NCBI RefSeq assembly: GCF_002135375.1
Contig: NZ_NEGH01000001.1
Span: 186,001 to 250,000 of the forward strand
DNA from: Acinetobacter sp. ANC 4558
GTDB lineage: Bacteria; Pseudomonadota; Gammaproteobacteria; Pseudomonadales; Moraxellaceae
Direction of reading: 5' to 3'
Length of the DNA: 64,000 nt
The position numbers and the translations under genes were made by a program. The notes beneath the pieces are model-generated. The model was not told the origin of the DNA, ran no database searches, and saw only the letters and a program-made list of their open reading frames with translations. The stretch's first letter is position 1. Every line of letters starts with the position of its first letter. This document shows positions 25,366 to 32,971 of this stretch, piece by piece.

Positions 25366-26619
25366 TTATTGCCAGCCCCAACATGCACGGCTTAACTGAT
25401 CTTGTGGAATGCCACATTTTTGATATTTAATTGCATACCAAATTTTTCCACCCGAGCGAGGTGTACCATCCTTCTTCACATCTGTTCGAACTAAATCGTT
25501 AAAGTCATCACTATCTCTTGTCTCACTAATGGCTAAAGCACCCATACTTTGGGCTGTTTTATCATTATAAATAATATCTGTAGGCTGTGTTGAACCCATT
25601 AAAATAGAGTATCTTGCAACAGCTGCCTGATATCCAGTCGCACTCCCTGAAAGTAATAATGTTTTTTTAATTGAAGTTTCTGCAAGAATATCCTCAATCG
25701 CATATTGCTTCACATCTAAATGAAACTCAGATAAAGCAGGGACTAAACCTTTTTCTATTTGTTTATGAAACCAATCTTCCCATAAAAATTCTGCAAAATC
25801 TGCAGCACCTTCAACTTTGCTATAGCCAATATTTCGAGTGAAATAAACCAATGAACGATAATCATTGTTTTCCATTCCACTTGGATTGCTGCTCGATTTT
25901 AAGCCAAGGTTTTTAGACAGTTGTTGATAGGTAATTGTATTATTCGCACCATTTTTTAACCATGCTTGTCCATTTGCAACCATTTTTGCCCAAAATTCAT
26001 CTGCTGTTTTTAAATCACTATAATTTGCAACAACACGCACAAATACTTTTAAATTTTTACCGCCATCAGGTAATTCTAATAAAGACGTAATGGTATGATG
26101 ACCATCTGTTAAATATAAATTACCGTCATAACCTATCACCACTGTTTTTAAACTTGCGACTTCAGAGCCTAATGGTTTTTCACATTCAAACGTTGTTGCA
26201 TCATTTAATTTTGCACTTTCTAAAGCAAAGATATTTGCAAAGTCTTTACCTGAAACCCCTCCCATATCTTCACAATAATCACTGAATTTTTTACCAATGG
26301 TATTTTTAAGATATTTAAATTGATTTGCATCATCTTTTTGCCAAGTGTTCCGTTGAGCATCACCTTGCCAACGACCTAATTTATAATAAATTTGATCATA
26401 GCCAATCGCCCCTTGACTTGGATTTAACTCTGCAATTTTGACCTCTAGAACATCACCAGCCTTTGCATTTAAAAACTGTTGATTACGGTGATCGACTGGT
26501 TTTTCAGGCTGAACAACGACTTGCTCATGATCATTAGAATCATCACAACCGACCAAACCAAGACAACATGCAAATAATGTAGTAAATCCTAACCGTTTAA
26601 GTGTCTGATGCTTCATCAT
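25366..26619 (-). CDS. Exported lipoprotein with ParB-like (ParBc_2) domain
   Basis: The 417-residue protein has a lipoprotein signal (FACCLGLVGC, lipobox LVGC, Cys at about 25), followed by a polar DDSNDHEQ linker. The ParB/Srx-type segment contains the hallmark YLTDGHHTITSLLEL (about 170-185), the DGHH ligand loop of ParBc_2 proteins. LNPSQGAIGYDQIYYKLGRW precedes it. A long C-terminal region has no motif I know. ParBc_2 members have been proposed to be nucleases but are largely uncharacterised. The membrane-anchored periplasmic location is unlike chromosomal ParB. Confidence 0.7.
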   Translation of the reverse strand: MMKHQTLKRLGFTTLFACCLGLVGCDDSNDHEQVVVQPEKPVDHRNQQFLNAKAGDVLEVKIAELNPSQGAIGYDQIYYKLGRWQGDAQRNTWQKDDANQFKYLKNTIGKKFSDYCEDMGGVSGKDFANIFALESAKLNDATTFECEKPLGSEVASLKTVVIGYDGNLYLTDGHHTITSLLELPDGGKNLKVFVRVVANYSDLKTADEFWAKMVANGQAWLKNGANNTITYQQLSKNLGLKSSSNPSGMENNDYRSLVYFTRNIGYSKVEGAADFAEFLWEDWFHKQIEKGLVPALSEFHLDVKQYAIEDILAETSIKKTLLLSGSATGYQAAVARYSILMGSTQPTDIIYNDKTAQSMGALAISETRDSDDFNDLVRTDVKKDGTPRSGGKIWYAIKYQKCGIPQDQLSRACWGWQ

Positions 26620-28459: not shown

Positions 28460-29758
28460 TTAATAACCCAGTTGTGGTGCAACCTCCACATTCGGTTTTA
28501 AACCAATAAAAGGCATTGGTGCTTGGAAAATTTCAGCAATATGCATGGCTGATGTTACCGCGGACTCTAATATTGGTAATCCATCACATGACCAAGATCC
28601 ACAAAAGAAAACTTTTCTATTGGCTTGCTGATGACGTAACTGTAATTCTTTATTCAATGCAACAGTTTGTGAATCAACAACAGCACGCGTTAGTTTAACT
28701 GAGGCTACTACTTTTTTTGGATCAATCTCAGTAACTGGACGCCAGGTTTGAAAAATAGGTCTTTTACCTACTAAAGAAGGTTCTACTGCATTGAGCCATA
28801 CCGTAAATTGTTGTTTGGTAAATTTACGATCCATCATATAGCTTAAAACCGACCAATCTTTACGCTTTGGAGGCATCACGGTCGAATCGGTGTGAATGAC
28901 TAAATCACCATCTTCAAACTTAAATTTTTTCAGTAGTTGAATATCATCTGCAAATTGATTCTGATTTAGAAACTCTTCAACTTTGGTTGTTGGCGTTGCA
29001 ACTACAATCCGATCAAATATAAACTCTTGATGATTGTTATTTTTAATGACAACACCTTGCTCATTTTCCCGAACATCAACAATTGCAGCATCACTAATAA
29101 TTTCAATGCCATCAATAAGTTTGTCTACAAAAGCAGGCGTACCACCTTGTAAACGCAACAATGCATCACCATCGGTTAGTTGACGTAAAAAAGTGAGTAA
29201 TGGCTTTGCCGGCCACTCTCCTATTGTCTTAGGATTACATGTACAAATCGTATAAAGCACAGGCATCACAGCACCATGCCAAAATACTTCTTCAATTTCA
29301 TTATGATTTATGAAATCTGCAAGTGTCATATCTTGATTTTTAGATCTAAAGAATTTTGCAATTGCAACTTTAAGTTGCAACATACCTTTGACTAAACGCC
29401 AACCATATTGTTGCATTCCTTTTCGATTGCTAATAATTGGAAAATTACCAATTCGACTACGTGTTGTCGTGAGCCATGTTTCAGTTTTATCTTCAAATAA
29501 CCAGCTACATGCCATATATGTACGTACTGGATAGGTTTTAATACCTAAATGTGTTGCCAAGCTTAACGTGTTCTTCCACAAATAAGGATTCATTACGCGT
29601 AAAGGTGCATCAATTAAGCCACCTTCAAACTCCATACTATGACTGTCCATACCTCTGCCAGGTAACGCTTCAAATATTGTAATATTATGTCCAGCGTCTT
29701 TTAGAATTCTTGCTGTAGCGAGTCCAGCCATACCGCTACCAATCACTGCAATATCCAA
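28460..29758 (-). CDS. FAD-dependent amine-oxidase-type oxidoreductase
   Basis: The 432-residue flavoprotein opens with the Rossmann signature IAVIGSGMAGLATARILKDAGH (GxGxxG) and IFEALPGRGMDSHSME, with the FAD ribose acidic residue in FEA. The C-terminal FCGSWSCDGLPILESAVTSAMHIAE is the FAD-binding end motif. Similar proteins are annotated as NAD/FAD-dependent oxidoreductases in lipid-modifying gene pairs. It is the first gene of the pair with the methyltransferase. Cysteine-rich SWSCDG and CTCNPKT are unremarkable. The substrate is unknown. Confidence 0.78.
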   Translation of the reverse strand: MDIAVIGSGMAGLATARILKDAGHNITIFEALPGRGMDSHSMEFEGGLIDAPLRVMNPYLWKNTLSLATHLGIKTYPVRTYMACSWLFEDKTETWLTTTRSRIGNFPIISNRKGMQQYGWRLVKGMLQLKVAIAKFFRSKNQDMTLADFINHNEIEEVFWHGAVMPVLYTICTCNPKTIGEWPAKPLLTFLRQLTDGDALLRLQGGTPAFVDKLIDGIEIISDAAIVDVRENEQGVVIKNNNHQEFIFDRIVVATPTTKVEEFLNQNQFADDIQLLKKFKFEDGDLVIHTDSTVMPPKRKDWSVLSYMMDRKFTKQQFTVWLNAVEPSLVGKRPIFQTWRPVTEIDPKKVVASVKLTRAVVDSQTVALNKELQLRHQQANRKVFFCGSWSCDGLPILESAVTSAMHIAEIFQAPMPFIGLKPNVEVAPQLGY

Positions 29759-29975: not shown

Positions 29976-30004
29976 TTTACAAATCATAAAAAAGTGTTTA
30001 TGAT
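29976..30004 (+). promoter_or_regulatory. Sigma-70-type promoter of the candidate sRNA
   Basis: TTTACA at 29976-29981 and TATGAT at 29999-30004 are separated by exactly 17 bases. This is a near-consensus promoter with no start codon downstream that has a useful frame. Confidence 0.75.
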
Positions 30005-30010
30005 TTAAAC

Positions 30011-30126
30011 CATAAAAATGATAACAACATCACAATAAAAAGAAATAATAATAACAAAGTAACGATAACAAAAAAGAAACAAGCAGCGTAAATAAAAAGC
30101 CTTTGAGAAATCAAAGGCTTTTTTTT
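30011..30126 (+). ncRNA. Candidate A-rich sRNA with AAnAAnAA motifs
   Basis: Between a near-consensus promoter and a 12-bp terminator lie about 115 bases with no credible ORF (only a 6-codon MITTSQ). The body is purine- and A-rich and contains several AAnAAnAA matches, such as AATAAAAA, AATAATAA, AATAACAA, AACAAAAA and AAAAAGAA. In Pseudomonas, A-rich decoy RNAs such as CrcZ bind Hfq/Crc through AAnAAnAA-like motifs. Function here is inferred only from composition. No Rfam family is recognised by eye. Confidence 0.6.
30095..30126 (+). terminator. Bidirectional terminator, sRNA and ahpC
   Basis: A 12-bp stem (AAAAGCCTTTGA / TCAAAGGCTTTT) with a GAAA tetraloop and T-runs at both ends. It sits between the plus-strand sRNA candidate and the minus-strand ahpC, and can serve both. 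Confidence 0.92.
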
Positions 30127-30199: not shown

Positions 30200-30763
30200 T
30201 TAAATTTTACCCACTAAATCAATAGAAGGGGCAATTGTTACATCACCTTCTTTCCATTTCGCAGGACAAACCTCTCCAGGATGTGTATATACATACTGTG
30301 CAGCTTTAACTTTACGTAATAACTCAGCTGCATCACGACCAATACCTCCTGCATTAATTTCAATAATTTGAATTTTTCCATCAGGATCAATGACAAAAGT
30401 ACCACGATCTGCCAATCCTTCTGCATCAATTAAAACTTCAAAATTTCTAGCAAGTGTCCATGTCGGATCACCAATTAATGGATATTGAATTTTTCCAATC
30501 ACATCTGAGGTATCATGCCAAGCTTTATGTGTAAAATGTGTGTCTGTAGAAACACCATAAATTTCAACGTTTAATGCTTGAAATTCCGCATAATGATCTG
30601 CTAAATCACCAAGTTCTGTTGGACATACAAAAGTAAAATCTGCGGGATAGAAGAATATAACCGACCATTTTCCTTTAAAGTTTTTTTCTGAAATATCAAT
30701 AAATTGACCATCATAATAAGCAGTTGCTTGAAATGGTTTTACGTCAGTATTAATTAAGCTCAT
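30200..30763 (-). CDS. ahpC: Alkyl hydroperoxide reductase peroxiredoxin AhpC
   Basis: The 187-residue typical 2-Cys peroxiredoxin has peroxidatic Cys47 in DFTFVCPTE and a resolving Cys near 166 in [24 protein letters not shown] is the AhpC-specific stretch. It reduces peroxides and peroxynitrite in the cytoplasm with AhpF, which is not in this window. The gene is monocistronic. Its upstream region is AT-rich, and the convergent 111-residue orphan lies beyond it. Confidence 0.95.
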
Positions 30764-31391: not shown

Positions 31392-32971
31392 TTATTTCCA
31401 TTGAATACCCACTGAAGCACCTCCACCCCAAGTGCCTCGACTATTGGTTGTTGTTGCGAGCTTCCAAATATAGTGTACTGGCTTATTATTAAAGAATTTC
31501 TTCTCTAGTGTAACTCCTGATGCACCAATTGAAAAACCAGCCTCACCTTCCCATACACCTGTTCCAACGGCAAGCATTGAGCTACCATACTCTGTTGGCT
31601 GTGGTAATGAAGCAATGGCTATTGCTGCTGCGACTGCTGCATTTGTTTTATTTGACAATTTATCTAAACGATCATTCGTTGCTTTTAATGAATCATCAAA
31701 ATTAGAACCCAGTGTATTTAACTTTTTATTGAGTTCAATATCTGCTGCATTTAAAGCATCAACGGCATCACCAATATTGTGTACAGTTCGTTCGTTATCG
31801 AGCCCTGTGCAATAGCATAACCACTACTTGCATTCGCATTCAAACCAATGGCTATAGCATTGTCACTACTGGTGTTGGCTGATTTACCTACAGCAATACT
31901 ATTCTGTCCACTTGCAATGGCTGAAGCTCCTTGTGCAATGGCATAACTATTACTCGCATTCGCACTTGTACCAACCGCTATCGTATTATCACTACTTGCA
32001 TTCGCTGATTTACCCACAGCAATACTATTCACTCCACTTGCATTCGCTGATGTACCTTGAGCAATGGAAGAACTACCACTTGCATCCGCAGCATTTCCAA
32101 GAGCAAGACTTTTTGAACCTTTGGCACTTGCACTTGCACCAACTGCAGTCGCATTATCACTACTTGCATTTGTCGATTTACCCACTGCGATACTATTGAG
32201 CCCACTTGCAACAACTGACGTACCTAGCGCAACAGTATAATTACCAGATGCAACAGGACCTGTCGCTGAAAAAATGTTAGTTCCAGTTGACTCAGATGCA
32301 CCTATCGCAATTGCACTTAGACCATTTGCATTAGAGGAATGCCCAATTGCGATTGCTTTTTCAGCAAGTCCTGAGCTTACCGTACCCATGACAATTGCAT
32401 GATTGCCAGTAGCAACACCATCACGACCAATCACGATAGAAGAATTACCAGAAGTATAAGATCTATGCCCAACGACAACCGAATTTGGTGCATCTGATTG
32501 ATTATTATTCCCAATTAAAACAGCAGTAGTTGTAGACCCTATATTATTTCCACCTAGAATGACATTCCCAGTAGAAGCACCACTAGAGCCATTTCCAATT
32601 ACTACGCCAGTATTTGCAGTCAACTGAATAGAAGAGGGCGTATTGGGATTTTGAAAGCTATTAAAATTTGTATTTCCATCTGCGCTAGTAGCCCCAGGGG
32701 AAACAAGAGACCCCGTTCCTGTCGTACTAATTACCTGCATCGCCATCGCAGAATGTACAAACAATACCCCCAATATACTCAGCATACTGGTAATTAATAT
32801 TTTTTTTGGTTTTAACTGAGGCACTTTGGAGCAAGATGAAATATTGTAATTCAAATTATTTTTTTTATTCGAAGTTGTTTTTTGTGATTTAGTATGTCCT
32901 TTAGCCAATTCAGAAACCGCAATCCAAATGCCTAAAGATGCACTCCAAATAACTTTATAAATAATATTCAT
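31392..32971 (-). pseudogene. Trimeric autotransporter adhesin (YadA/Ata-type), frameshifted
   Basis: The N-terminal frame (32971 to 31751) has an extended ESPR signal peptide (about 77 residues, ending HSAMA) and a long YadA-head repeat region (SIAVGKSANASS.. and AIAQGASA units). It ends shortly after AQG in a different frame. The downstream frame encodes the neck, LDNERTVHNIGDAVDALN, a short stalk and the C-terminal YadA anchor from about 31658 to 31392 (GASVGIQWK). One missing base near 31801-31805 (GGG in CAGGGCTC, minus strand) would restore LDNERTVHNIGD. It is a pseudogene, a phase-off state or a sequencing error. Confidence 0.8.

Follow-up and report, generated by a model that had tools for sequence, protein, structure and literature searches.

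A conserved small RNA gene of Acinetobacter at the place of ABUWs004/Art4, probably encoding an Hfq-associated pairing RNA

Introduction

The CrcZ, CrcY and CrcX RNAs of Pseudomonas are longer than the RNA described here and are made from CbrB/sigma-54-controlled promoters. A CbrAB-CrcZ branch is not known from Acinetobacter. According to the abstract of one review, CbrAB is found in the Pseudomonas family alone. The Acinetobacter RNA that has been set beside CrcZ is sRNA99 (ABUWs076), which an Hfq RIL-seq study found in Hfq chimeras more often than any other sRNA, for the most part in the RNA1 position, and which its authors likened to CrcZ (PMC12802169); it is also counted among four keystone sRNAs (PMC11472050). 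Apart from that remark, the literature searched names no Crc-binding sRNA of Acinetobacter in its titles and the beginnings of its abstracts. The published sRNA99 probe (PMC5320573) corresponds to ACTACAGCGC on the RNA strand.

Two catalogue entries of A. baumannii bear on the locus by their place. ABUWs004/Art4 was recorded by RNA-seq in 2016 as a 121-nt transcript of '<' orientation at 233,515-233,635 of AB5075 (PMC5320573), and AbsR-5 was predicted in 2014 between a hypothetical and a pirin gene, with a 45-nt gap (PMC3976366); ten of the 31 AbsR predictions were tested in that work and three (AbsR11, 25 and 28) were confirmed. No reported function of ABUWs004/Art4 was found in the literature searched, supplementary files and most subscription papers lying outside the search. 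The A. baumannii transcript is already known, as is the kind of system; what follows makes of a catalogue entry without a function an sRNA family that spans the genus and has a defined promoter, a candidate seed and a 3' module. As for a CrcZ-like sponge of Hfq in this genus, the results point to sRNA99 more than to the RNA described here.

The sRNA gene and its neighbours

The gene lies on the forward strand of a 64,000-nt stretch of Acinetobacter sp. ANC 4558 DNA (the window), in which an earlier note had marked a candidate sRNA and proposed that it is a Crc/Hfq decoy. Its sigma-70-type promoter occupies 29976-30004 and consists, exactly as described there, of TTTACA (29976-29981) and TATGAT (29999-30004) separated by 17 nt. 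Transcription is predicted to start at 30010 and to yield an RNA of ~117 nt (30010-30126), limits that are consistent with the match to the sequence model R1 (below), with related stretches of other genomes and with the 121-nt length of ABUWs004; no listed ORF of >=50 aa overlaps them, in keeping with the ~115 non-coding bases previously counted. Reading from its 5' end, the predicted RNA comprises a conserved block, AAAAATGATAACAACATCACA (30014-30034), which is proposed as the pairing seed and recurs in a motif-picked alignment as well as in loci found by blastn; an A-rich, unfolded middle of variable sequence (30035-30079), in which six of seven AAnAAnAA motifs start; a 3' module, AGAAACAAGCAGCGTA (30076-30091), with a family consensus near AGAAACTTACAGCG, which is common to sRNA99; and an intrinsic terminator (30094-30126), all on the + strand.

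Folding of the window RNA generates one strong hairpin (30094-30123; z -5.05), with the GAAA loop that the earlier note had seen, a stem of 13 bp rather than 12, and then the U's encoded by the T tail; without the terminator, the sRNA folds no better than its shuffles. A simple terminator scan of the window did not include this hairpin among its listings. No Rfam family reaches its gathering score on the sRNA stretch (four tRNA matches were obtained in the window); 15 sub-threshold matches, from both strands and with E values up to 10, were set aside, the best of them having an E value of 5.6e-4 but scoring only 27 bits where the cut-off is 114. Taken alone, the promoter match is not above chance, with 14 promoter-like sites in 3 kb against 14.6 in shuffles of this A+T-rich window, and the evolutionary conservation of the promoter was therefore examined.

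The sRNA is divergently encoded from a flavin amine-oxidase-like gene (28460-29758, - strand), as it is in the ABUWs004/Art4 orthologue group. This flavoprotein gene, which is present in 165 of the 175 genus genomes at E<=1e-60, served as synteny anchor. The convergent neighbour on the other side encodes an AhpC-type peroxiredoxin (30200-30763, - strand). Somewhat farther away on the - strand are a YadA-type trimeric autotransporter gene (31392-32971) that looks broken, being split over two listed ORFs, of which one carries the ESPR signal together with the head repeats and the other the membrane anchor, and a gene (25366-26619) whose lipoprotein-like product has a nuclease domain of the ParB-like kind (ParBc_2).

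The A. baumannii orthologue

Genome G006, which we take to be A. baumannii, has the gene order pirin, sRNA, flavoprotein, with pirin at the place that corresponds to the AhpC gene of the window; the sRNA stands at the ABUWs004 place and has the 5' block, the 3' module and a terminator. Its place, its strand and its size make ABUWs004/Art4 the orthologue of the window sRNA in A. baumannii. An indirect check agrees: with the G006 RNA anchored at ABUWs004, so that AB5075 positions follow from the G006 layout, a C4 RNA is predicted at ~244,313 '+', and ABUWs006, a member of Group 1, is printed ~120 bp from there, at 244,194 '>' (PMC5320573); Group 1 was taken as the C4-like class mentioned in the abstract of that paper. 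The same anchor puts ABUWs005 in an intergenic stretch of G006. The layout of AbsR-5 also fits the window-sRNA orthologue: its orientation is that of the G006 sRNA, where the gap measures 41 nt.

The window sRNA resembles ABUWs004/Art4 and AbsR-5 in its flavoprotein-pirin place, its strand and its length (~117 nt as against 121). It differs from ABUWs004 in that its middle and its terminator stem have other sequences and AhpC rather than pirin stands beside it; it also has far more AAnAAnAA motifs than the A. baumannii relatives, which have 0-1.

Conservation across Acinetobacter

Eighty named loci were fetched by way of the flavoprotein gene (one of them, L130, without upstream sequence). In 49 of the 80, the opposite strand carries, upstream of that gene, a stretch of 104-126 nt with the 5' motif and a terminator; the motif was allowed up to 5 mismatches, the ends of six stretches were placed manually, and three members (L064, L076 and L085) are doubtful. 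Among these loci and the window (50 sequences), the -35 element is exactly TTTACA in 38 and the best promoter spacer is 17 in 45, and 32 have a promoter score >=10, compared with 2 of 150 control positions. Of the two features whose lack of conservation in an alignment was to refute the earlier note's candidate, the promoter is accordingly conserved, with -35 and -10 kept across Acinetobacter loci.

For a wider search, model R1 was built from 33 sequences. RNAalifold found no pairs on the MAFFT alignment because the terminators were misaligned, and R1 is therefore a model of sequence only. In the window genome it matches G000:C1:216011-216125 (window 30011-30125), its next-best match having an E value of 0.026. 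At the flavoprotein locus it recovers 45 of the 80 named loci at E<=1e-3, 30 of which had been used to build it; one training member, L101, has no R1 match up to E 1. Across the genus, 163 of 175 genomes have a match at E<=0.05, a figure that mixes the window-sRNA family with sRNA99. When synteny is required, at least 101 of the 175 genomes have an R1 match that precedes the flavoprotein gene by 253-565 nt (median 285) and lies on the strand opposite to it. Of 150 R1 matches listed, 102 (in 101 genomes) adjoin that gene, 33 do not, and 15 are without a listed flavoprotein row. Among the matches listed, 30 of the 33 off-locus matches compared coincide with sRNA99 loci, the comparison set omitting the contig-end G045 and including G098, whose flavoprotein gene is not listed. 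The matches that blastn gave in 62 of the 175 genomes often consist of little beyond the terminator, and the counts therefore rest on synteny and R1. Among 149 genomes of the host's family, R1 matches outside Acinetobacter are weak (best 1.1e-4).

Inspection by eye detected no such RNA at this place beside the flavoprotein gene in G003, G144 and G058, which we take to be A. apis, Acinetobacter sp. HY1485 and A. nectaris, or in G027, where a transposase-like insert occupies that region. In genome G174 the sRNA is duplicated in tandem, and both copies keep the 5' block and ACTACAGC while the rest mostly differs. Judging by this pattern of conservation, the window sRNA is a real gene, kept across many Acinetobacter species. 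The earlier designation as candidate sRNA was right, the gene being conserved between species and a transcript being on record at the orthologous place of A. baumannii.

Two further observations concern the upstream region and copy number. A recurring TTAACCA-N4-TATAAC, seen by eye in several loci such as L063, L066 and L083, has its first base ~23 nt ahead of the -35 box and is a possible activator site; it is not seen in the window genome. The sRNA also appears to be present twice in tandem, ~250 nt apart and with diverged middles and terminators, in L079, L081 and L118, as in L201 (G174:C8:196900-198000).

Conserved blocks of the RNA

What persists at the 5' end of the family is AAnAAYGAnAAC-N4-TCACA. 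Eleven positions of this block are 90-100% identical in 42 sequences (the set without five near-identical and three doubtful ones), compared with mostly 30-70% in the middle, a contrast that is partly built in, the sequences having been picked by that motif with <=5 mismatches. The mismatches themselves are distributed over 45 sequences as 0 in 3, 1 in 13, 2 in 15, 3 in 8, 4 in 4 and 5 in 2, and signs of the block that do not depend on the choice of motif come from the blastn-found loci and from the G174 duplication. In several clades, such as A. lwoffii and A. terrae, the promoter and the end are kept and the 5' block is weak (by eye), which counts against the seed as a genus-wide rule. A 5' mini-hairpin, UGAU/AUCA, was considered and rejected: it has no double-sided change, and 78.0% of its cells are paired as against 81.4% in shuffles, although fewer cells pair when the partner is slid. 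The 5' block is therefore read as unpaired.

The middle is skewed toward A. A exceeds T there in all 44 sequences, compared with 28 of 44 upstream, and is at least 1.5 times T in 39, compared with a single one upstream. Directly before the terminator, an ACAGCG-type sequence is present in 35 of 42 sequences, the window variant being GCAGCG. That ACAGCG is simply common to many sRNAs was rejected: of 20 AACTN{0,2}ACAGCG places in G006 (24 in the reversed control), only two precede a terminator, and these are the window-sRNA orthologue and sRNA99. The terminator hairpin is kept between species while the sequence of its stem changes, and some family terminators have short, interrupted T runs that are less like a classic Hfq tail. 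No conserved fold other than the terminator was found in the sRNA family.

Probable function

The window sRNA is probably an Hfq-associated RNA that base-pairs through a 5' seed, a sibling of sRNA99. Its own promoter, its intrinsic terminator and a conserved stretch without a conserved fold are features of Hfq-dependent pairing sRNAs. The distal face of Hfq takes A-R-N repeats. A stand-alone RNA of ~117 nt, made from its own sigma-70-type promoter and ended at its intrinsic terminator, would place its A-skewed, unfolded middle on that distal face and its terminator U tail on the proximal face, leaving the conserved, unpaired 5' block to pair as a seed with target mRNAs. That the RNA binds Hfq, that it pairs through the 5' block and that it has mRNA targets is inferred; with the one pattern tried, no convincing complementary mRNA site for the 5' block was found in the window genome, where only coding or isolated sites came up.

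The 5' block could instead be read as DNA, that is, as an operator of the CRP/Vfr type (TGanA-N6-TCACA) just after the start, through which a regulator would repress the sRNA gene. The spacing of the half-sites equals that of a CRP site, the A. baumannii relatives have TGAGA-N6-TCACA, and the pattern occurs 21 times in the window genome with <=1 mismatch, against 6 times when reversed. The left half is nonetheless asymmetric, which a palindromic site would not be, as position 13 is free whereas 12 and 15 are always A, and 7 of 12 examined sites (out of the 21) lie inside ORFs, so that we consider an operator improbable.

The decoy proposed by the earlier note would be of the CrcZ kind, an A-rich body titrating Hfq (and Crc) from catabolic mRNAs. 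The "about seven" AAnAAnAA motifs on which it was based number exactly seven, with starts at 30034, 30037, 30044, 30047, 30050, 30067 and 30071, compared with a mean of 3.54 in shuffles of the body (P 0.047). A comparison with equally A-rich window stretches tells little: 14 of the 16 overlap the sRNA, which leaves two, with 1 and 3 motifs. Between species, AAnAAnAA is absent in 20 of 45 family sequences (a count that includes the doubtful, short L121, left out later), and the unweighted mean over these 45 is 1.09, near the 0.89 of shuffled sequences. The motif thus largely follows A-richness and is not kept between species, the second of the two outcomes by which the earlier note would have its candidate refuted; the decoy loses its support, and the caution that an A-rich sequence makes such matches easier by chance proves to have been justified.

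A decoy would still draw on the A-skew common to all members and on the 3' module held in common with an RNA that has been likened to CrcZ, and its partner may be at hand. The window genome encodes one Exo_endo_phos protein, close to exonuclease III and to P. aeruginosa Crc, with structure matches to a Neisseria-type exodeoxyribonuclease, 2jc5 (1.2e-72), and to P. aeruginosa Crc, 4jg3 (6.6e-68). Crc is therefore possible in this genome, where the candidate is not distinct from a repair enzyme. A Crc acts in Acinetobacter sp. SK2 (PMC8312277). The likeness to CrcZ, CrcY and CrcX is confined to A-richness and, in this one genome, to the motifs; the window sRNA is much shorter, and its family has a conserved, ordinary -35/-10 promoter of the sigma-70 type. 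An ordinary pairing RNA is more likely than a decoy, which on balance we regard as unlikely, and the role would suit sRNA99 better.

Relation to sRNA99

sRNA99 is 160 nt long and stands at a locus other than that of the window sRNA. Model R2, which represents it, has matches at E<=0.05 in 153 of 175 genomes, some of the rows counted being those of the window-sRNA place. AAnAAnAA is kept in 17 of 18 sRNA99 loci, with a mean of 4.18 against 1.86 in shuffles for the 17 counted, which are related to each other and were mostly found through the A-rich model R1; the remaining locus, L190, has no AAnAAnAA and was left out of the A-skew and motif counts. sRNA99 accordingly seems a better CrcZ-like candidate than the window sRNA.

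The two RNAs are alike in having an A-rich body and, directly before the terminator, ACTACAGCGC or its like; R1 matches sRNA99 loci and R2 matches the window-sRNA family in at least three genomes (G019, G023 and G164). They differ at the 5' end, where sRNA99 has CATAAGGAA..., without counterpart in the window-sRNA family. On their sequences, the likeness in the 3' half could equally reflect common descent or convergence of an A-rich end. In the window genome, R2 gives unconvincing values of 0.0034 (whole genome) and 0.0027 (the window together with 160 kb of contig 1), and the relative G026 has a partial sRNA99 copy.

A more far-reaching proposal would make the window sRNA and sRNA99 two arms of one A-rich Acinetobacter family with a ACUACAGCG-terminator 3' module, both loading on Hfq and jointly setting the level of free Hfq, as an independently evolved counterpart of CrcZ/CrcY/CrcX whose balance has shifted to the window sRNA in some species. 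The window genome, with its seven motifs and no clear sRNA99, would be a case of that shift. We hold this for quite unlikely.

As a separate observation, sRNA99 forms a genus-wide family with a conserved 5' part near CATAAGGAAgt...ACATGGAatGTTT and enriched AAnAAnAA (L186-L189, L191-L194, L200 and L202-L205).

Further features of the 5' block

That translation starts in the 5' block, to make a short leader peptide or a small protein, is scarcely credible: an ATG stands at that place in 27 of 42 sequences, but the other 15 lack it (ACG in 9, GTG in 3), the window frame has six codons, and no Shine-Dalgarno sequence is seen ahead of the ATG.

A sequence close to that of the 5' block, AATAATGAAAATTAAATCACACA, occurs in an intergenic stretch after hemF (L161/L174; G000:C1:53309), between hemF-like and aroE-like genes, these names having been assigned by eye; the hemF 3' end is the source of the sRNA HemZ in A. 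baumannii.
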